DNA from: a virus
DNA length: 22,335 nucleotides
Virus record (IMG/VR): IMGVR_UViG_3300006790_000124
Location: 1 to 22,335 of that record
Direction: 5' to 3' (one strand)
This document shows, piece after piece, positions 6,117 to 21,830 of this stretch. Numbering within the stretch: the first letter of the stretch is position 1; every line of letters begins with the position of its first letter. The notes beneath the pieces were generated by a model, which was not told where the DNA came from, made no database searches, and was given only the letters and a program-made list of their open reading frames with translations. A program made the position numbers and the translations under genes.

Positions 6117-7433
6117 ATGAGTTCAATTTCATTGCCTTCTGAAAGACAGATTCGGCACTTTTTCGTAGCAGATGCTGTAGCTTCTGAGACTTCTATCACT
6201 GATATGCGTTCAACTGCTAGCATTGGAGAAGTACAAATTTTTGGAGAAAACGGACTAAACTCTGACACCTCTGGAGATTTCTACATTGCAAAAGTTAACC
6301 AGAAAGGAACACTTAGTATTTCTGATCTTATCACGCCAGGCGATATCACTTATACCGCTGGAGTTTCTCCAGTAACTAAAAAAGGGAAGTATCAAAGCTT
6401 TTCACTAAGTTCTGCTCCAGTAGTAGGCGAAAGCTATGTACTAGTAGGTAAGGTGCACTATGGCGTTTCTGAAGAAAACTTTATTACTTTCTGGGCTGAG
6501 CATACTGCTACTACAACTAATCCTGAAGATGTGCTTAACGCACTAGCACTTCAAATCAACAAACAATTAGCTCAAAGTATCAATACTGCTGCTAACAATC
6601 CAGCTACTGTTCAAGTATATGGTAATGCAGCTGTAGGTTCTGTAGAACTAACTGCCGGAGCTTCTGGTAGTGTTGATACTCTAACAGTTGATTCTGTTGA
6701 TATTCTAGGTGGAGCTGTAGCATTTAATACTTCTCTTGCTCAAACTGCAAGTGATGTAGCTGATGCTATTAACGCAAATCGTTCTAATCCTGATTATATT
6801 GCTGAAGCTAGTTCTGCTACTGTAAATATTTATCCTCTAATTCCCGGGGTAAGTACTCTTGCTGTAGCTTCTACTGCTACTACTATCACTACTTCTGACA
6901 CCAACCTTGGTGGAGTAAGTGCTGGTACTGCACCTGCTGCAGGTCAGGGTCAAAGCAATAAATACTTTGAAGTATCTGTTGTTAACAACTCTGGAGATGA
7001 AGCAATTTACATTCGTGAAAAAGATTGGATTCTAGACGATTACCGTCCAGGTCTACGTACTTTTGATCAAATGCTTTGGAACTTTGAAATGTATAGTGAG
7101 GATTCTACTGCCGATGCTAAAGCAACTAAGGCAGAAGTAGCTCCTGTATATGCAAAAGGTCAAGGATACCAAATGATCGAACTAGAGCGTTTCTTAGTAG
7201 GTCACCGTGCTGAGTTTGATCTTAAAGATAGTACTCTTGAATTTGGTCGTAGCTTTGATGCTTCTACTGCTTCTCAGTACTACATTTTAGATCTTCAGTA
7301 TTTTGATGTTTCACGTGACAGTGAAAAGAAAGCCAAAAAGCAACTGACTATTGTCTCTACTTCTAATACTGTTATCAATACTATTGGTAATGCTATCGAA
7401 GCACGAGGCGGTCAGACTTGGACTGATCTCTAA
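6117..7433 (+). CDS. Abundant virion structural protein (tail-tube or head-decoration candidate)
   Basis: A 438-residue protein without a signal peptide. Residues 1-130 and 278-438 look like one beta-rich domain, with HYGVSEENFITFW near 114 and ELERFLVGHRAEF near 355, then ASQYYILDLQYFDVS and QLTIVSTSNTVINTI near the C-terminus. Residues about 176-270 look like an inserted module: SVDTLTVDSVDILGGAVAF, then SLAQTASDVADAINA, then SATVNIYPLIPG. This is a common phage tail and appendage repeat. Codon use matches the capsid gene (9 of 12 Arg codons CGT), suggesting a product made in many copies. I cannot decide between a tail-tube-type protein and a capsid decoration protein. A crAss-like podovirus would favour decoration or a tail-barrel part. 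A 25-base A/T-rich gap precedes its ATG. Confidence 0.55.
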   Translation: MSSISLPSERQIRHFFVADAVASETSITDMRSTASIGEVQIFGENGLNSDTSGDFYIAKVNQKGTLSISDLITPGDITYTAGVSPVTKKGKYQSFSLSSAPVVGESYVLVGKVHYGVSEENFITFWAEHTATTTNPEDVLNALALQINKQLAQSINTAANNPATVQVYGNAAVGSVELTAGASGSVDTLTVDSVDILGGAVAFNTSLAQTASDVADAINANRSNPDYIAEASSATVNIYPLIPGVSTLAVASTATTITTSDTNLGGVSAGTAPAAGQGQSNKYFEVSVVNNSGDEAIYIREKDWILDDYRPGLRTFDQMLWNFEMYSEDSTADAKATKAEVAPVYAKGQGYQMIELERFLVGHRAEFDLKDSTLEFGRSFDASTASQYYILDLQYFDVSRDSEKKAKKQLTIVSTSNTVINTIGNAIEARGGQTWTDL

Positions 7434-7887: not shown

Positions 7888-8419
7888 AAGCACACTAAAC
7901 GTTACGATAACAGATGCAGCCAGTTTAACTTCACTACTACTCTGGACTGATCAAACTTATAAAGACTTTACAAAAGCAAAAGACCTTAGTTCTAAACTTA
8001 CAGGTTCTGCTACAGAAACTATAACTATTTCTCCTAGTGATATAGGAGAAACATTCTTTGATGGATTATATTATTTAGAGTCTCAAGATGCTAATCAAAT
8101 CAGCATAGCTGCTTTAGCTGAGCTTAGAAAATATAAAGAGTGTGTAGTAAAAAAAGTATTAGCACTTGATCCTTGTGAAGATTGTGATAAAGATCTTCAA
8201 GAAATCTTAAATATAGATGTAACAATTAAAGCACTAGAATATGCTACTCAATTTCTTGCAACTAGTGCTATGCAAATTATGATTGATTTATTAGATAAAT
8301 ACTGTGCAGATAGCTGTAACACTTGTGGTAACAGAAATGCTAACGTATTAGATAATAACTCTAATGATCAATTTGATCCAGATACAATAATAGTAACAAT
8401 AGACGGAGGAACAGACTAA
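7853..8419 (+). CDS. Small virion-region protein with Cys clusters, paralogue of previous gene
   Basis: A 188-residue protein starting inside the 3' end of its paralogue. The beta-rich N-terminal domain (residues 1-80) aligns by pattern with the previous protein (TETITISPSDIGETFFDGLY against TEITITKEDLGLDSLNNNYF). The helical part (about 85-155) has six clustered Cys residues: DPCEDCDKD and DKYCADSCNTCGN, plus one in YKECVV. They are spaced like a metal-binding or disulfide cluster and are absent from the paralogue. The last 25 residues are Asn/Asp-rich. I recall similar small Cys-containing proteins between structural and fiber genes of Bacteroidota phages, but no function I can name. The stop overlaps the fiber start in TAATG. 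Confidence 0.65.
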   Translation: MQITSFKLSADKSTLNVTITDAASLTSLLLWTDQTYKDFTKAKDLSSKLTGSATETITISPSDIGETFFDGLYYLESQDANQISIAALAELRKYKECVVKKVLALDPCEDCDKDLQEILNIDVTIKALEYATQFLATSAMQIMIDLLDKYCADSCNTCGNRNANVLDNNSNDQFDPDTIIVTIDGGTD

Positions 8420-10989
8420 TGCCAGCAATTAATATAAGTGTTAAAACTATTCAACTTCGTAGAAACACTAATGCCTATTGGACTAGTAGTGGTATTACTC
8501 CTGATGCTGGTGAGCCTATCTATTCTACAGATACTAATGAACTTAGAATTGGAGATGGTTCAACTCCCTGGACAGGTCTAACTCCTATTACTGGTGGAGG
8601 AGGCGGAAGTGTTACTCAAGAAGAAGTAGAAGATTATGTAGGTGCTCTTATTACAGGAACAGCTTACGTAACAGCTACATATAATGACGTAGCAGGCTCT
8701 CTAACAGTAGATCTAGCTTCTGCCTATAAAACTATATTAGACAACACCAGTAACATCAATACAGGCGATGAAACAGGCTCTGGTATAGTTTCTAAAATAG
8801 ATACAGAGCTAGGACAAACTGATTGGAAAGCAAGTGTTAGTATTCCAACTGGTGGATCTACTGGTCAAGTATTAAAAAAAGTATCTAATGCTAATTATGA
8901 TTATTCTTGGCAAAATGATACTGATACAGATACTACTGCAGCTGCAGGTATATCTATAACAGATTCAGGTGCTTATTTTACAGGGACTGATGTAGAAGCT
9001 GCTCTTCAAGAAATAGGAGCAGGGGGTATTGGTGGTGGAGATACTATCACTGTAAATGATTATCAAGTAGAGACTCCTAGTGGAGCAATTAACGATGTTA
9101 ATACTACTTACACTACTCTACAAGGAAGTTACAAATCTGGAACGTTAATAGCTTATTTAAATAATCAACCTATAACAGTAGGAGAAGGATTAACAGAAGG
9201 TAATCCAAGTCTTGGTACTTTTGATATTAGTCCAGCTCCAGCTACTGGAGATACTCTATATGTCACATATGTAACTGTAGACGCAGGTACATTAGTTCAA
9301 GGAGAAACTAACACAGCCAGTAACTTAACTGGAGATGAAGGAATATTTGCTAGCAAAGTTTCTGCAGATCTTAGGTTTAAATCACTTACCGCAGGCAGTA
9401 ACATAACTCTTAGTAGTGATGCTAATAGTATAACAATTAGTGCCACAGGAGGTGGAGGTGGTGGAGGAACTGTTGATGTAGTCTCAAATGTTGCTCAAGA
9501 TACAATACTTGGTAGAGTGTCAGCTGGTTCAGGTGATAGCGAAGAGTTAACTGCTACTCAAGTAAGAACTTTATTAAATATAGAAGACGGAGCTACTGCT
9601 GATCAAAGTGATTCTGAAATTAAAACAGCTTATGAAAATAATGCTGATACTAATGCTTTTACAGATGCAGAGCAGACTACAGTAGGATATTTAACAGTTA
9701 CTCAGGCTGTAGATCTTGATACAATGGAAAGTAATATTACTACTAACAATGCTAAAGTTTCAGCTGATGGTAGTATAAATACTCATAGTGATGTAACTAT
9801 TGGAGCAGCAACTAGTAGTTCAAATGCTACTCTTAGAGTACTTGCAGATACAAATACAGACGGAACTTATACAGTAGTAGACTGGACTCCACCAACTGGA
9901 GGTAGCGGAGAAGTTAACACAGCAAGTAATTTAGGAGCAGGTACTGGAATATTTACTACTAAGTCAGGAGTAGATCTTCCATTTAAGTCTTTAGTAGGCG
10001 GCACTAATATTTCTTTAACTAATGATGCTAATACAATCACGATTACTAATGATATTGATACGTCACTTTATGCTTTATTAGCAGGAGCTGATTTTACTGG
10101 AGACATTACTACTACTGGAGATATGACAGTAAGTGCAGCTGGAAATGTTTCTGGAGTAATTGCTAACGCTGCTAATCTAGGGTTTGATAATTTTACATCA
10201 ACAGGAGAAACTGCTAAGTTTACTTTTGGAGACGATAATAACTCTATTGTCAATTCTTTTGGTAATGGTATGGGCATACGCTCTTATTGGACTATGTACT
10301 TTGATGGGTATCATCAAGGAGGAGTAGCTTCAGATGCAGATGATTATCCAAGTATATCTGGTGTAGGTTATCAATTTATTTTACGTGGATCTAATGCAGG
10401 CTCTAGAGGAATTAAACTATATCCTCCTAGTGGTTCATGGTCTGGTAACTATATAGAAGCAGTTGATTCAGGAGACACTGAAGTATTTACTATTGATAGT
10501 ACTGGTCTGTTTAATGGAACTGTAGCCTATGATAATACAAGCTCTGGTCTTGCAGCTACAACTACTCAAGCTGCTATTGATGAAGTAGAAGCCAGAGTAG
10601 ATGCTAATGACGCCAAAGTAACAGAAAACAATAAAGCTACTTATATATTAAATTTAAGTGACTATACTACTGATTTAACCACAGGAACTACTAAAGCATA
10701 TTTTAGAGTTCCTTATGCTTGTACACTTACAGCAGTAAGAGCAAGTGTATTAACTGCTCCAACTGGATCTGGAATTACAGTAGATATTAATGAAAATGGT
10801 ACTAGTATACTAAGTACTAAATTGACAATAGATGCTACTGAAAAAACAAGTACAACAGCCGCTACAGCTGCTGTAATTTCTGACAGTGCTTTAGCAGCAG
10901 ATGCTGAAATGACTTTTGATATAGACGCAATAGGATCTACTATAGCAGGCGCAGGATTACAAGTACAAGTTGATATAGAAAGAGTATGA
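8419..10989 (+). CDS. Modular phage fiber protein
   Basis: An 856-residue fiber, probably trimeric, that displays receptor-binding parts on the virion. Residues 8-58 (TIQLRRNTNAYWTSSGITPD, then ELRIGDGSTPWTGL) match the small N-terminal module seen in Mtd-type tropism proteins and many fibers. A module near 185-200 carries FTGTDVEAALQEIG. Residues 213-290 hold a known beta module (GTLIAYLNNQPITVGEG, then PAPATGDTLYVTYV). Residues about 355-425 hold a standard module with ILGRVSAGSGDSEELTATQV and EDGATADQSDSEIKTAYE. Two copies of a TASNL...FKSL...ITI repeat lie at about 298-345 and 497-543, with a third in the 1114-residue fiber. The final 110 residues form a beta-sandwich-like tip (YFRVPYACTLTAVRAS, then AIGSTIAGAGLQVQVD). 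Gly-rich linkers separate modules. It could be a head or tail fiber. Both neighbouring junctions overlap (TAATG, ATGA). Confidence 0.85.
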   Translation: MPAINISVKTIQLRRNTNAYWTSSGITPDAGEPIYSTDTNELRIGDGSTPWTGLTPITGGGGGSVTQEEVEDYVGALITGTAYVTATYNDVAGSLTVDLASAYKTILDNTSNINTGDETGSGIVSKIDTELGQTDWKASVSIPTGGSTGQVLKKVSNANYDYSWQNDTDTDTTAAAGISITDSGAYFTGTDVEAALQEIGAGGIGGGDTITVNDYQVETPSGAINDVNTTYTTLQGSYKSGTLIAYLNNQPITVGEGLTEGNPSLGTFDISPAPATGDTLYVTYVTVDAGTLVQGETNTASNLTGDEGIFASKVSADLRFKSLTAGSNITLSSDANSITISATGGGGGGGTVDVVSNVAQDTILGRVSAGSGDSEELTATQVRTLLNIEDGATADQSDSEIKTAYENNADTNAFTDAEQTTVGYLTVTQAVDLDTMESNITTNNAKVSADGSINTHSDVTIGAATSSSNATLRVLADTNTDGTYTVVDWTPPTGGSGEVNTASNLGAGTGIFTTKSGVDLPFKSLVGGTNISLTNDANTITITNDIDTSLYALLAGADFTGDITTTGDMTVSAAGNVSGVIANAANLGFDNFTSTGETAKFTFGDDNNSIVNSFGNGMGIRSYWTMYFDGYHQGGVASDADDYPSISGVGYQFILRGSNAGSRGIKLYPPSGSWSGNYIEAVDSGDTEVFTIDSTGLFNGTVAYDNTSSGLAATTTQAAIDEVEARVDANDAKVTENNKATYILNLSDYTTDLTTGTTKAYFRVPYACTLTAVRASVLTAPTGSGITVDINENGTSILSTKLTIDATEKTSTTAATAAVISDSALAADAEMTFDIDAIGSTIAGAGLQVQVDIERV

Positions 10990-12254: not shown

Positions 12255-13664
12255 ATGAAAAAAATACTATTTATACTTACATTATTAATAACTATAAATA
12301 TATACTCTCAAGGAGATTTTAGAGTAAATAGTCTTAGATATATACCTCAAGCTAGTGCTCCTAGTAATCCTAAAGAAGGAACTAGATATCTTAATTCTAC
12401 AGATAATAGATTTTATCAATATGTAGGAGGACAGTGGGTACAGGAATCTAATTTAGTTCCTATTCAATCCACTCCTCCTAGTACACCACAAACAGGAGAT
12501 AGATATGTAGATACTGATAACTATGCTTTATATATTTATAATGGATCAGCTTGGGTATCTCTTAGTGGTAATATTGGAAAGAAAGTATTTACAGAAGTAG
12601 GAACTAATACTACTATTACAGATTCTGATTTTGAACTTACTGGAGATAATGAAAACGCTCAGCCTTGGATAGTTCCTACAGATACTATTAATATTACTAT
12701 TAATGATATTACAGCAGAGAATACACTGTTTATAAAGCCTCTTATTAACTCACAAGCTACTGTAACTGCAGGAGGTTCTCAGTTATTTTGGATAGCAAAT
12801 GAAGATAGATACATGAATGCTTTCATAGTTAATAATATGAACTCTGTAGGTATTAGTAAAAGAAGTGCTTCTCTATTAGCAGTAGAAGGAAATGTTAATG
12901 CTTATTTTGTAGATAATACTCCTCCAGGAACTGTAGGAAGTTTAGCTGCTAGTAATATACAATCTACTAGTGCAACGCTTACATGGACACATGCTACAGA
13001 CGACGAAGGAGTTAGTTATTATCAAGTAAGTACAGATAACATTACTTATAGTCCTATAGGCTATGTATTAACTTATGATTTACAAGGACTAACTGCTAGT
13101 ACTAGTACTACTGCGTATATACAGGCAGTAGATATTAATGGGAACGTAGGATCTCAAACTAATGTAAACTTTACTACTGCAGGTGGATTTAGTTTATTAA
13201 CAGCAGGCAATTCTAATCCAAATATTATCTCTACTGGATCTGGAAGTTTTGTAGCAGATGATACAGGTATATATGATTCAACTACAGGAGATCATTATGA
13301 TCCCGTTCAAATTAGTTCACAAACAGCAGTAGCAGAAAGTGTTAATAGTTCTACATATGTTAATGAACTTATAGGAACAGGATCTGTTTACTCTAGAGGT
13401 AGACTTAGATTTGGAGCAACTGCAGGTCAAGTATATGAATATGATTTCTTCTACAAAATGGTAGGAGGAGGAACTCATGGAGCACTTAGAATTAATGGAA
13501 ACTTTGTAGCCAATAACTTAAGTGCCACTGATTGGACACTTATTTCTGGAGAATATACAGAAGATGATACTTTCTTAGGAGTAGATGTATATGCTAGTAA
13601 TAGTAATAGTGCAGCTAATGGAGAAGGTATTCGTTGGAAAATGATAGTTAAATTAAAAGATTAA
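12255..13664 (+). CDS. Exported protein with fiber-type repeats, FN3 and CBM-like domain
   Basis: A 469-residue protein with a clear Sec signal peptide: Lys-Lys, a hydrophobic core (residues 4-16), and likely cleavage near NIYSQG (18-20), the usual flavobacterial form. Two tandem copies of a phage fiber-type module follow: PKEGTRYLNSTDNRFYQYVG with GGQWV (39-62) and PQTGDRYVDTDNYALYIYNG with SAWV (78-101). A beta region covers 105-215. An FN3 domain covers about 219-309 (SATLTWTHATDDEGVSYYQV, then STTAYIQAVDINGNVG). The C-terminal 150 residues look like a CBM_4_9-type jelly-roll (VYEYDFFYKMVGG, then ATDWTLISGEYTED). No lipobox and no type IX sorting domain are visible. It is coupled by TAATG to the toroid enzyme candidate. 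An exported glycan-binding partner of that enzyme is the simplest reading. A virion role would require the signal to be ignored or cleaved. Confidence 0.7.
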   Translation: MKKILFILTLLITINIYSQGDFRVNSLRYIPQASAPSNPKEGTRYLNSTDNRFYQYVGGQWVQESNLVPIQSTPPSTPQTGDRYVDTDNYALYIYNGSAWVSLSGNIGKKVFTEVGTNTTITDSDFELTGDNENAQPWIVPTDTINITINDITAENTLFIKPLINSQATVTAGGSQLFWIANEDRYMNAFIVNNMNSVGISKRSASLLAVEGNVNAYFVDNTPPGTVGSLAASNIQSTSATLTWTHATDDEGVSYYQVSTDNITYSPIGYVLTYDLQGLTASTSTTAYIQAVDINGNVGSQTNVNFTTAGGFSLLTAGNSNPNIISTGSGSFVADDTGIYDSTTGDHYDPVQISSQTAVAESVNSSTYVNELIGTGSVYSRGRLRFGATAGQVYEYDFFYKMVGGGTHGALRINGNFVANNLSATDWTLISGEYTEDDTFLGVDVYASNSNSAANGEGIRWKMIVKLKD

Positions 13665-15883
13665 TGAAGAAATTAATAGTATTAATAGCTTTAATATTTA
13701 CTACAACATTTAGTTATAGTCAAAGCCCTACTAAAACATATGAAGAGTGGAAAGCTTTAGCCGATGCTCATATGGCTGGTAATTTTAATTACTTAAGACA
13801 TAGTAATATGGCAGACTGGTTAGTAGCTCCTTATATGGCAGTAGATATTGCTGATATGTATTGGGAAGCATTTGCTTTAATTAATGGATTAACGCATATG
13901 TGGTTAGCTACTGGAGATAATGCTTATCTAGATCTAGTATTAGATATAGTAGAAAGAGATATAGACAATGCTGTTAATATGTCTACGGCTAATCCACCTC
14001 CCCAATCGTCTAATTATCAAGCTTGGGACTTTAATGCATTCTTAGCTAAACCTAACTGGTTTGGTTTTAGTGGTACAATTAATTTATCTACTTATGCAAA
14101 CGGAGTAATTAACGGAACTATTGACCCTTTAGTATATGGATATGGACGTAGAACTAATGCTAATGGTACATCTGCTGGTGTATATATTGCACTGGATGAA
14201 GGTATGTATAACAGAAATATCGCTAACCTAGCGAGAGTTATGAATCACAATATTGGAAGTATAGGCACACAAACTTCTAATAATGGACAAACATATCAAC
14301 AAAGATTAGATAAAATAGTAGCTCATTTAAGAGATCATGTATGGGCAAGAAACTTTGAAAATGTTAGTGTAGATAATAATCACTATGCAAGAGATGTGTA
14401 TCGCGTAAACACGCACATGAGTTCTCACCTTGCTATGGTAGCATTGTGCTTGTGGTCTATTGAAGGAGATCAAAAATATAGAACTTTTGTAGAACAATAT
14501 TTATGGGATTTTGATCAAATTCCTGCTGGATTTAAACAACCTCCTTATTTAACTTCCGGTCAAGGATTATTAGATAAACTAGAGTATCAATCCAATGGAG
14601 ATAGATATTGGTGGGTAGCTCCTTGGGATAAAAACGTAGGAGGAGCAGTTCTTCAAGATGAAGGACATGCTGTAGCAGAAGCTCAATTTTTACAAACTTG
14701 TTATGAAGAAGGTATTGGTCTAAACCCACCTAATGGAGAACCTGCTATAGATTTAATCTTTATGCAGCGTATGGCCAATGCTTTTCATTTAGGTTACCTA
14801 AAAGGATATAACTGTGGAGATGGAAGCAATGAACCTTCTCCTGCTTATAGATTAGATGGAACTGGATTCTCTTACGGTATGCAATCTGCCATAGTAGCTT
14901 ATGCAGAATATAATCCTAATATATTATGCTACTTAGAACAAAGAATTTCTGCTATTGATTTAGTAAGAATAGGTCAATTAGGAATGACTACTTATGTCAG
15001 TAGAGTACTAGGTGTTAATGGAGATGATGGGCCCGTATACACTAGAACAGGAGATGGAGTAGGAACAGATAACTTTCCTCCTAATGTTAATGCGAAAAGA
15101 GCTTCTCCTTATCAAATAGGCATAGGAGATGAATACATAGAATTAGGAGCTGACGTTACTGATGTAGAAGATGGAGCTAGTACTATAGCTACACCTACAA
15201 GTGGCAGTGTTCCTGTAGATGGAAGTAATATAGCTACAACTGCAGGCACTTACACACTAGTATATAGTTACACTGATGGAGGAGGTATTACTAGATCAGA
15301 TACTCTTATAGTAGAAGTCACTGATAATGTTAATAGTCCGCCTGTACTTACTATGGAATTTGTCTCTATTACTATTGAAGAAGGAGGAGTATACACTAGA
15401 CCTACTTATACAGTAACAGACGTAGAAGATGGTACTTCAACAACAGGAGCAGTAATTACAGGAGACACTGTAGATACTAGTACAGCAGGAGTATATAGTG
15501 AAATATATACAGTTACAGATAGTGCAGGTGCTCAAACTTCTCAAGTAGTAGTAGTTACTGTAGCAGAGACTGGAGTACTAACTCCTACTAATATAGTAGC
15601 AGATAGAGGAAGTAAAACTTACTATCTTAATGTAAGGGAAACTGATTTTCCTGGATATACTATATTTCCATTAGATGCTAATCCTGAAGTAGTAGTTACG
15701 TTTAGTAATTCTGATATAGTAGAACTACAACCTACAGATCAATTCACTTATCAAATATTAGCATTGGCTCCAGGAACTACAACTATGACAATTACTTCTG
15801 CAGTTGATTCTAATATATCAGTACAAATACCAGTAGTTGTAGTAAGACCTACAGGAATAGTTAATTTATTAATAGGACAATAA
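13664..15883 (+). CDS. Exported alpha/alpha-toroid polysaccharide-active enzyme candidate with Ig-like domains
   Basis: A 739-residue protein with a flavobacterial Sec signal peptide (residues 1 to about 20, ending FSYSQ). Residues 25-460 are mostly helical, with repeated helix pairs bearing aromatic and His/Asp residues, like the alpha/alpha-toroid of polysaccharide lyases and some glycoside hydrolases. Candidate active-site residues are in NNHYARD (238-244), THMSSH (250-255) and LQDEGHAVAEA (330-340). Then come two related Ig-like DUF5011-type domains (about 470-553 and 558-634, each with the TDVEDG motif and a TAGTYTLVYSYTDGGG or TAGVYSEIYTVTDSAG strand), and a BIG_2-like domain (about 640-729, ALAPGTTTMTITSAVDSNIS). 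The layout suggests a secreted or surface-held enzyme acting on capsule, exopolysaccharide or algal glycan. Catalysis, substrate and exact family are unproven. A non-catalytic toroid remains possible. No type IX sorting domain is visible. Confidence 0.65.
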   Translation: MKKLIVLIALIFTTTFSYSQSPTKTYEEWKALADAHMAGNFNYLRHSNMADWLVAPYMAVDIADMYWEAFALINGLTHMWLATGDNAYLDLVLDIVERDIDNAVNMSTANPPPQSSNYQAWDFNAFLAKPNWFGFSGTINLSTYANGVINGTIDPLVYGYGRRTNANGTSAGVYIALDEGMYNRNIANLARVMNHNIGSIGTQTSNNGQTYQQRLDKIVAHLRDHVWARNFENVSVDNNHYARDVYRVNTHMSSHLAMVALCLWSIEGDQKYRTFVEQYLWDFDQIPAGFKQPPYLTSGQGLLDKLEYQSNGDRYWWVAPWDKNVGGAVLQDEGHAVAEAQFLQTCYEEGIGLNPPNGEPAIDLIFMQRMANAFHLGYLKGYNCGDGSNEPSPAYRLDGTGFSYGMQSAIVAYAEYNPNILCYLEQRISAIDLVRIGQLGMTTYVSRVLGVNGDDGPVYTRTGDGVGTDNFPPNVNAKRASPYQIGIGDEYIELGADVTDVEDGASTIATPTSGSVPVDGSNIATTAGTYTLVYSYTDGGGITRSDTLIVEVTDNVNSPPVLTMEFVSITIEEGGVYTRPTYTVTDVEDGTSTTGAVITGDTVDTSTAGVYSEIYTVTDSAGAQTSQVVVVTVAETGVLTPTNIVADRGSKTYYLNVRETDFPGYTIFPLDANPEVVVTFSNSDIVELQPTDQFTYQILALAPGTTTMTITSAVDSNISVQIPVVVVRPTGIVNLLIGQ

Positions 15884-16269
15884 TGATCGGCTTAAGTATA
15901 GCTTTTGGACATAATGATTTTATAACCTGGATTAGTACAGTAGCCTGGTGCTTACTTGGTATACTAGGAACTAAGGTGTATTTTTATATAGTACGTACTA
16001 CTAATAGAGATAAACCGTTTAATCTCAAATTCTGGTGGAAAGATAACGCTGCAGACTTTATGGTAGGTTTTGTGTTATCTCTATTTCTATTAAGAGGAGG
16101 AGATGAAATTATCTACTATTTAGAATCTTCTGGTTATAAACTTCCTTTCAATATTCACGAGAATGCAGATGTAGTAGTATTATATAGCGCTATATCTGCT
16201 GCTTTCCAAGGATATTTACATAAGAAAAAGAAAGTAATCAAAGATAAATTAAAACTAAATGACAGATAA
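15883..16269 (+). CDS. Small membrane protein, holin candidate
   Basis: A 128-residue protein with hydrophobic segments at about 14-36 (ITWISTVAWCLLGILG and following), 58-72 (DFMVGFVLSLFLLRGG) and a weaker one at 96-112 (DVVVLYSAISAAFQGYL), then a Lys-rich tail (HKKKKVIKDKLK). Two to three membrane passes with a basic cytoplasmic tail fit a holin, which opens the inner membrane for lysis. No endolysin gene is recognisable beside it in the window, so the role rests on topology alone. It starts in a TAATG overlap with the toroid gene, and its last 11 bases overlap the next gene. An anchoring or superinfection-exclusion membrane protein is an alternative. Confidence 0.5.
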   Translation: MIGLSIAFGHNDFITWISTVAWCLLGILGTKVYFYIVRTTNRDKPFNLKFWWKDNAADFMVGFVLSLFLLRGGDEIIYYLESSGYKLPFNIHENADVVVLYSAISAAFQGYLHKKKKVIKDKLKLNDR

Positions 16270-16513
16270 AAAGAAAAAAGGATTACCCAAAGGATCAAAA
16301 AGAACCGGAAAACAAAGTAATAAGAAAGCATTTAGTACTAAAGGAAACGCTCCTTATAGAACAGATAAAAAGAATAAGAGAAATAAACAGAAAGAATTAA
16401 CTAAAAAAGAAAACGACTCTATTCTTAAAAAAAGAAAACCTAGTAAAATAAAATTAACTAATTCTATGGCTCCCAAAAGATCAGGGAAACGTACTAGAAC
16501 TTATAAAAAATAA
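16259..16513 (+). CDS. Extremely basic 84-residue protein, function unknown
   Basis: Of 84 residues, 26 are Lys and 7 Arg against about five acidic residues, so the net charge is near +28. There are no hydrophobic segments and no recognised domain. The sequence looks disordered, with clusters such as DKKKKGLPKGSKR and a C-terminal PKRSGKRTRTYKK. It overlaps the membrane protein gene by 11 bases and the next gene by TAATG. The conserved packing between two real genes and the coherent composition support a real product. A nucleic-acid-binding, DNA-condensing or ribosome-binding role would fit the charge, as would binding to acidic virion or membrane surfaces. None of these is shown by the sequence. 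Confidence 0.65.
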   Translation: MTDKKKKGLPKGSKRTGKQSNKKAFSTKGNAPYRTDKKNKRNKQKELTKKENDSILKKRKPSKIKLTNSMAPKRSGKRTRTYKK

Positions 16514-17697
16514 TGGCAAGTTCAGATAAAATACGAGTAATGTGTGGCATTGAGGATGCCCTCAATAAAGCTAAAAAAACAGGAGTATTAGATCTTCAGA
16601 ATATCTATTATTATAATTCTGTATTTGAACTTATTGAAATATCTAAAAGAGATAATGACTTTACGACATATGTAAATGATTTAAGAGATACACTAAACAT
16701 AATTACTTACGGAGATAACATAACTAATTTAGGAGATACTATTATAGTTATAGCAGATGATGTAGTTCCCAATGATGGTTCTGATCCTAATAACGATGTA
16801 GGTACAACAGATACAGGAAGTACAAATGACAACAATGGACAAGGAGATAGTTCTTCTACAGATGATACTGATGGTAATGGTAATAGTGATTCTCAAGATT
16901 TTGACGAGGATACAGGAGGATCTGGACAAACCCCTGAAGGTGGGGATAACGGAAGTGGTGGATCTCCTACTATTACTGCTCCCACTATTTCTGCTTTAAC
17001 TGTAAGTACTAGTAAAGGAACTCCTATATCTGGTTCAATGACTATCTATGATGTTTATACATTTAGTAAAGCAGACTTCTTAGGTATTTACTCAGATAAC
17101 AACGATCAAGATTTTTATCAATTAGTATTAGACACTACTACACTTGACAATGGCTTTCTCTTATATAATGGTGTAGCAGTAGCAGAAGGATCTGGTAATC
17201 TAACAGTACTAGCTTCTGATCTAGGAAACTTAGTATGGTACACTAATACTAATGTAGAGTATACTCACGATCTTAGTTTTAACTTAGCCGATAAAGTAGG
17301 TAATACAATTACTCTAGCAGCAGCTAATGCCACTCTTACTATTAGTAGAATTTTAGCAGGTGTTAATCAACCGCCTACTATGGGAGATCAAGCACTATAT
17401 GTCAATAACAGAACTACAACTATTATTACACTCGCTATGGTAACTAGTAGCCTAACTCCTCCATATAATGATCCAGAAGGAGATCTAATAGACGCTATAC
17501 GAATAGACGAAGTGTCTACAGCTAACACAGGAGAATTTCAATTTAATGGATCGCCTGTTACAGCTAATTTAATTATAACAAGAGAACAACTAGAAAGTAA
17601 TTTATTTACTCACGTAGGGCCTAACACAGACTCTATAACCACTGACTCTATTAACATCTCAGCTAGAGATGAAGGTAGTGGAGTATGGGTAAGCTAA
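16513..17697 (+). CDS. Appendage protein with acidic linker and cadherin-like domains
   Basis: A 394-residue protein in three parts. Residues 1-82 form a small helical domain (IEDALNKAKKTGV, then YYYNSVFELIEISKRDNDF) that could dock to the virion. Residues 84-152 are a low-complexity linker made almost only of Asp, Gly, Asn, Ser and Thr. Residues about 155-280 and 285-394 look like two cadherin-like or Ig-like beta repeats. Each has an Asp/Asn-rich acidic loop and an FxxNGxxV turn (FLLYNGVAVAEGSG and FQFNGSPVTANLIITREQL). The second repeat is clearly related to the 125-residue protein at 21453-21830 (shared DPEGD and a GSG-ending final strand). The acidic loops suggest calcium binding, which is inference. 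It starts by TAATG overlap with the basic gene. It has no signal peptide, so it is more likely a virion part than a secreted protein. Confidence 0.6.
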   Translation: MASSDKIRVMCGIEDALNKAKKTGVLDLQNIYYYNSVFELIEISKRDNDFTTYVNDLRDTLNIITYGDNITNLGDTIIVIADDVVPNDGSDPNNDVGTTDTGSTNDNNGQGDSSSTDDTDGNGNSDSQDFDEDTGGSGQTPEGGDNGSGGSPTITAPTISALTVSTSKGTPISGSMTIYDVYTFSKADFLGIYSDNNDQDFYQLVLDTTTLDNGFLLYNGVAVAEGSGNLTVLASDLGNLVWYTNTNVEYTHDLSFNLADKVGNTITLAAANATLTISRILAGVNQPPTMGDQALYVNNRTTTIITLAMVTSSLTPPYNDPEGDLIDAIRIDEVSTANTGEFQFNGSPVTANLIITREQLESNLFTHVGPNTDSITTDSINISARDEGSGVWVS

Positions 17698-21452: not shown

Positions 21453-21830
21453 ATGGCACTATTTACAGTTACTACGAATTCATACGTAAACCTTCCCCCA
21501 AGTCAAGTAGGAAATAATTCTGTTACTACCGACTATGGAGTAAGTTATGCATTTTCAGTAGCAGACTTTACTACTAATACAACTCCAGTATATGCAGATC
21601 CTGAAGGAGACTCTGCAGCTACTCTTAAAATTACTAGTCTTCCTGCTACTGGTACTTTAGAATTTAATTCTGTAGCAGTTGTAGTTAACGATACTATTGC
21701 TTTTACTGGTACTCCTAGTATTGCTAATGGTAATCTAATTTATATACCAGACAATGGAACTACTACTGCTTATTCAGATAACTTTAATTTTGAAATAGCT
21801 GACTCAGGTTCAGGAACCTTTGTTGGATAA
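21453..21830 (+). CDS. Small single-domain cadherin-like appendage protein
   Basis: A 125-residue protein that is essentially one cadherin-like beta domain. From about residue 45 to the end it follows the last domain of the 394-residue protein at 16513-17697: PVYADPEGDSAATLKITSLP against PPYNDPEGDLIDAIRIDEVS, then an EFN/QFN turn, then DSGSGTFVG against DEGSGVWVS. The first 14 residues (MALFTVTTNSYVNL) instead resemble the start of the 1114-residue fiber. It may thus combine a shared N-terminal strand with a shared domain. The 30-base leader is purine-rich and nearly all A and G. A TAA TAA pair ends the gene. A virion surface decoration or fiber-associated protein is likely by context only. 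Confidence 0.6.
   Translation: MALFTVTTNSYVNLPPSQVGNNSVTTDYGVSYAFSVADFTTNTTPVYADPEGDSAATLKITSLPATGTLEFNSVAVVVNDTIAFTGTPSIANGNLIYIPDNGTTTAYSDNFNFEIADSGSGTFVG

Follow-up and report, generated by a model that had tools for sequence, protein, structure and literature searches.

The window analysed here is a viral DNA fragment of 22,335 bases. A crAss-like portal protein and a major capsid protein (44% identity to cr106_1) are encoded upstream of two consecutive genes, A and B, which belong to the run of co-directional virion genes that follows portal and capsid. A sequence-only reading of this DNA had given the boundaries of both reading frames exactly (Table 1) and had placed them correctly among fibre genes. 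They are flanked by a fibre with an Mtd_N domain (starting at 8419) and a fibre-region ORF (10986) on one side and by a virion structural protein (16513) on the other. The virion structural family phrog_22884 was matched at 16513 and again at 21453; window positions 16513-17697 and 21453-21830 are paralogues that have this domain in common. In the Mtd_N fibre (window 8419-10989), the C-terminal 118 residues are 71% identical to a fibre of L041 and the remainder is far less similar, which points to mosaic exchange. The gene at window 6117-7433 is matched by two tandem copies in a relative (L003:5233-7234).

Table 1. Features of genes A, B and C (window coordinates)
Feature	Position	Strand	Basis or remark
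Gene A, 469 aa: signal peptide, short fibre-type repeats, FN3, C-terminal beta-rich tip	12255..13664	+	
Signal peptide of A (MKKILFILTLLITINIYS)	12255..12308	+	sequence, rule-based test; predicted cut before Gln19
Fibre-type repeats of A (residues 33-106; DUF2793-like, phrog_8309/38707/20787)	12351..12572	+	
FN3-like domain of A (residues 228-300)	12936..13154	+	E 2e-4, under Pfam gathering score
C-terminal tip of A (residues 317-469)	13203..13661	+	weak homology to other fibre tips
TAATG overlap, A stop / B start	13662..13666	+	
Gene B, 739 aa: signal peptide, (alpha/alpha)6-barrel carbohydrate enzyme (likely), Ig-like domains	13664..15883	+	
Signal peptide of B (MKKLIVLIALIFTTTFSYS)	13664..13720	+	sequence, rule-based test; predicted cut before Gln20
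Catalytic domain of B (about residues 20-455)	13721..15028	+	fold model; family representative model
Family signature YRVNTHMSSHLA (R247, T250, H251, S254, H255 invariant in 26 sequences)	14399..14434	+	
Family signature LQDEGHA (D332, H335 invariant)	14651..14671	+	26-sequence alignment
Bacterial surface Ig-like domain PF16403 (residues 568-631; better of two stretches)	15365..15556	+	
Gene C, 128 aa multi-span membrane protein, holin position; start overlaps B stop	15883..16269	+	

The repeats of A match PHROG virion families and share 40% identity with a tail fibre from a Synechococcus phage. The tip of A has weak matches in the tips of two other fibres, that of L062 and phi12:1 gp50 (28% identity, E 2e-4; phmmer 3.5e-4), the latter being a collagen-type fibre without a signal. 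Residues 1-61 of A align to residues 1-66 of phi19:1 gp101 (38%, E 2.6e-5), a modest likeness in which the signal itself is part of the aligned stretch. No similarity was detected between A and Ingeline gp33, and scans of viral contigs with back-translated peptides returned no direct relatives of A or B. The location among fibre genes and the fibre-type domains in A together correspond to the pattern of virion-associated fibre and depolymerase genes.

The stop codon of B and the start codon of C share the same one-base TAATG overlap as A and B, which makes the translational coupling proposed earlier, from A to B and from B to the membrane protein, plausible. Judged by position only, C is likely, if unproven, a holin. 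At the equivalent position of the crAss-like relative L005, a small membrane protein precedes spanin-like and lysozyme genes, and the order A, B, membrane protein recurs in L062 and Ingeline. C had no matches in PHROG. Homology of C to phi19:1 gp105 was considered and set aside as marginal (E 0.002; 0.17 in a second comparison).

The catalytic domain of B belongs to no Pfam family, and its relatives were found by alignment-based search. An alignment of 26 sequences is characterised by the motifs YRxxTHMxSHxA and DxxH, and B keeps every invariant residue. The first full-length model of B had poor confidence at the C-terminus, so a cellular representative of the family was folded as well. B was modelled as an (alpha/alpha)6 barrel whose nearest structures are those of GH76, GH105 and GH88 enzymes and of sugar epimerases, with GH76 4v1r (Z 20.2, rmsd 3.7, 298 aligned) and GH105 4xuv (Z 19.0) as top matches; the cellular representative (pLDDT 81, GH105 Z 20.9) gave the same fold. 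Judging from these models, B is likely a carbohydrate enzyme of this barrel type, and a hydrolase, a lyase or an epimerase would be alike compatible with the fold. The catalytic domain shares its fold with GH76, GH105 and GH88 enzymes, in a family outside Pfam. Its invariants in the 26-sequence alignment are Arg/Thr/His/Ser/His and Asp/His motifs, and this alignment shows no invariant Asp-Asp pair of the GH76 kind.

The flavobacterial relatives of B are lipoproteins; the family members at the Flavobacteriaceae loci L064-L079 are of this kind, and their catalytic part matches no Pfam family. At L064 and L070, the two loci whose neighbours were compared with Pfam, the relatives lie amid capsule/EPS genes, with Wzy, a flippase, a UDP-sugar dehydrogenase, glycosyltransferases and a sugar-phosphate transferase as neighbours, a setting which makes surface polysaccharide the candidate substrate. 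Capture from the host, one of the explanations offered in the sequence-only reading, is possible for B given that its closest cellular relatives are these lipoproteins, though identity is only about 25%. B reveals an unnamed enzyme family with members in capsule loci.

Both A and B start with a basic n-region and an uncharged hydrophobic core (mean Kyte-Doolittle value 3.4 in A and 3.7 in B), followed by Ser at position -1 and Gln at +1 of the predicted cleavage site. The N-termini read MKKILFILTLLITINIYS followed by QGDF in A and MKKLIVLIALIFTTTFSYS followed by QSPT in B. Most substrates of signal peptidase I in Bacteroidota acquire Gln as their new N-terminal residue, which is then cyclised to pyroglutamate (PMC5837995), and both proteins agree with this Q-rule of Sec/signal peptidase I substrates in n-region, core, -1 and +1 positions. 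A rule-based test that asked for a basic n-region, a hydrophobic core free of charges, small residues and a +1 Gln was passed by A and B only, two of the 18 ORFs in the window; the remaining ORFs of the fibre region failed. Among crAss-like relatives (47 loci), three of 496 distinct ORFs passed, all three consecutive in L024. There, at L024:2388-7722, these signal-plus-Gln proteins (762, 772 and 227 aa) are followed by a small membrane protein. Shuffled N-termini passed at a rate of 0.0021 per ORF, and shuffling of the first 40 residues gave 0.011 for A and 0.0026 for B; with rates this low, two adjacent signal matches are not chance. Hence, the Sec signals noticed earlier on both gene products are real by this test and of the Bacteroidota Q-rule type, and Sec export of A and B by the predicted signals is well supported at the sequence level.

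No lipobox Cys at +1, as in phage lipoproteins of the spanin or Llp type, is present in the sequences of A and B, and no T9SS or other sorting domain was detected in either (NCBIfam at E 0.5, Pfam at 0.1). Exported A and B should therefore be periplasmic until lysis. Periplasmic O-glycosylation as a reason for export was rejected, as the motif D[ST][AILVMT] was not enriched. A pair that is exported during infection to remodel or mask the host capsule, for instance for superinfection exclusion, with no role in the particle, would fit the lipoprotein relatives of B and their capsule/EPS loci where tested, and lambda Lom is a precedent for an exported protein among tail genes (PMC12309495). We regard this as very unlikely, as A and B have no evident route to the surface before lysis and equivalent proteins of other phages bear virion marks from mass spectrometry (MS).

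These marks concern two Cellulophaga phages. According to the notes in their GenBank records, phi19:1 gp101-104 (KC821607) and phi10:1 gp091-094 (KC821618) are structural by 'experimental MS/MS proteomics'; the evidence consists of these record notes and applies to equivalent cassette proteins, not to the enzyme family of B. The proteomics was reportedly published by Holmfeldt et al. in 2013. All eight proteins start with Sec signals, with Gln at +1 in seven of them and Lys in phi19:1 gp104, and the 14 other MS-marked or virion-annotated proteins checked in the two phages have no signal. These eight marks speak against the premise of the sequence-only reading that export would remove proteins from virions, which is thus not supported. 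No MS-marked protein belongs to B's own family, in which Ingeline gp34 is annotated as 'hypothetical protein'.

Co-purification of soluble periplasmic protein may be a source of such marks, and A and B could then be a free adhesin and a depolymerase that are released at lysis and clear capsule or debris for the progeny without joining the virion. The signal peptides, the glycan-active fold of B with its relatives in capsule loci, and phi10:1 gp095, a signal-bearing lyase that is not MS-marked, are consistent with this explanation, which we nevertheless consider unlikely. Four cassette proteins are marked in each of two phages and the signal-plus-Gln proteins outside the cassettes (phi19:1 22972-23331; phi10:1 23531-23845 and 52925-53215) are unmarked, a control weakened by the fact that small signal proteins are harder to detect. 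Moreover, A contains phage-fibre repeats, and there are signal-free versions of such pairs with a collagen-type tail fibre as the partner. The secreted glycan-degrading pair suggested earlier thus keeps its glycan-active part, with B supported by its fold and capsule/EPS relatives and A being fibre-like, but loses secretion during infection, for which no outer-membrane route was found.

If the signals stayed uncleaved and their hydrophobic part anchored the proteins in the virion or a membrane, with assembly in the cytoplasm as usual, the MS notes could in principle be reconciled with normal morphogenesis. This is very unlikely in our view, as nearly every cassette protein retains a small -1 residue and a +1 Gln (the exception seen is Lys in gp104), which is the signal peptidase I/Q-rule pattern (PMC5837995).

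In other phages, the signal of Ingeline gp33 and the next ~40 residues, which are shared with phi19:1 gp103, are found again at about 67-69% identity in front of differing C-terminal domains, as would be anticipated for a head that can be exchanged. At the other end of proteins, a C-terminal tail NQ[NK]LIYWR is found on unrelated enzymes with and without signal peptides in the Cellulophaga phages L052, L001, L054, L055 and L134. The tag NQxLIYWR was rejected as a general marker: matches at ORF ends were restricted to Cellulophaga isolates and other pattern matches were chance frames.

Five phages in which the gene starts can be read have a B-family enzyme beside a fibre gene. Signals are present on both genes in the window, L062 and Ingeline and on neither in phi12:1 and L059, so that the signal, whose conservation in related phages had been proposed as a check, is kept in some homologues and missing from others. 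With other enzyme families, pectate-lyase-like and others, both genes have signals in phi19:1, phi10:1, phi13:2 and L024, and neither in phi17:2, phi14:2 and L041. In total, 12 cassettes comprise seven with both signals, five with neither and none mixed, which would have a probability of 1/792 if the cassettes were independent, a value that overstates independence, as they include related phages and different enzyme families. Phi19:3 was left out of the count as its enzyme signal sits in another reading frame in the record; in this phage (L050:18088-18150, gp095) the signal-coding stretch is out of frame with the first ATG and the annotated gene starts downstream. The fibres of the gut crAss-like phage PhiCrAssBcn2 have no signals, nor do the fibre regions of L003 and L005, the closest crAss-like relatives in which these are readable. 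The both-or-neither pattern indicates that signals come and go with the cassette and not with the phage lineage.

The expected periplasmic location and the virion marks on the counterparts in other phages are most simply combined if both proteins are exported, held back and joined to virions when the cell lyses. We consider it somewhat probable that this route is taken by A as a fibre and by B as a polysaccharide depolymerase, with attachment to the virions of this phage inferred by analogy. The host Sec machinery would export A, as a tail-fibre component, and B, as an enzyme acting on surface polysaccharide; signal peptidase I would cut before Gln and host glutaminyl cyclase would cap the new N-terminus. 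Both proteins would remain periplasmic during the cytoplasmic assembly of heads and tails. Upon lysis, for which C is probably the holin, virions would meet the periplasmic pool, and A may dock on the tail by the short head behind its signal, carrying or accompanying B, which would act as a capsule depolymerase at the next infection.

More broadly, and with less confidence than we would give to an even chance, we suggest that crAss-like podoviruses and unrelated siphoviruses of Bacteroidota may route part of their fibre apparatus via Sec as an exchangeable module of signal and docking head, the particle being completed outside the cytoplasm at lysis. In the usual view, virions of tailed phages are assembled in the cytoplasm. 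No report of exported virion fibres in tailed phages was found in the open-licence literature, and Sec-routed fibre assembly would be a second assembly route, undescribed for tailed phages in the literature searched. If fibres are exported first, the make-up of a virion would depend on how the host secretes proteins and processes their signals, other virions could acquire released fibres, and many Bacteroidota phage genes regarded as 'secreted' would have to be re-read as encoding virion parts.

Virion-associated depolymerases and tail spikes in general resemble A and B in that a glycan-active enzyme lies beside fibre genes. They generally assemble in the cytoplasm, and we know of no Sec signals on them. 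Phage targets of DGRs are stated to lack signals (PMC6199706), and the lyases of Ingeline and Nekkels were noted as 'carrying signaling peptides' (PMC8776804). Proteins of Porphyromonas gingivalis phages are likewise predicted to obey the Bacteroidota Q-rule (PMC10367356), but these are of unknown function and were read as modifiers of the cell envelope, not as virion fibres. The cassettes of phi19:1 (KC821607 gp101-gp105) and phi10:1 (KC821618 gp091-gp096) are like the window in having consecutive signal-bearing fibre and enzyme genes with a small membrane protein last; they differ in belonging to Assiduviridae, in their pectate-lyase-like enzyme folds and in the Lys that replaces Gln in gp104. 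Ingeline gp33-gp35 (Duneviridae) shares with the window a signal-bearing fibre, a signal-bearing enzyme of the B family and a membrane protein, the first two genes overlapping at start and stop, whereas its enzyme lacks the Ig-like domains of B and ends in a C-terminal NQKLIYWRY tag, and its membrane protein is from a family other than that of C.
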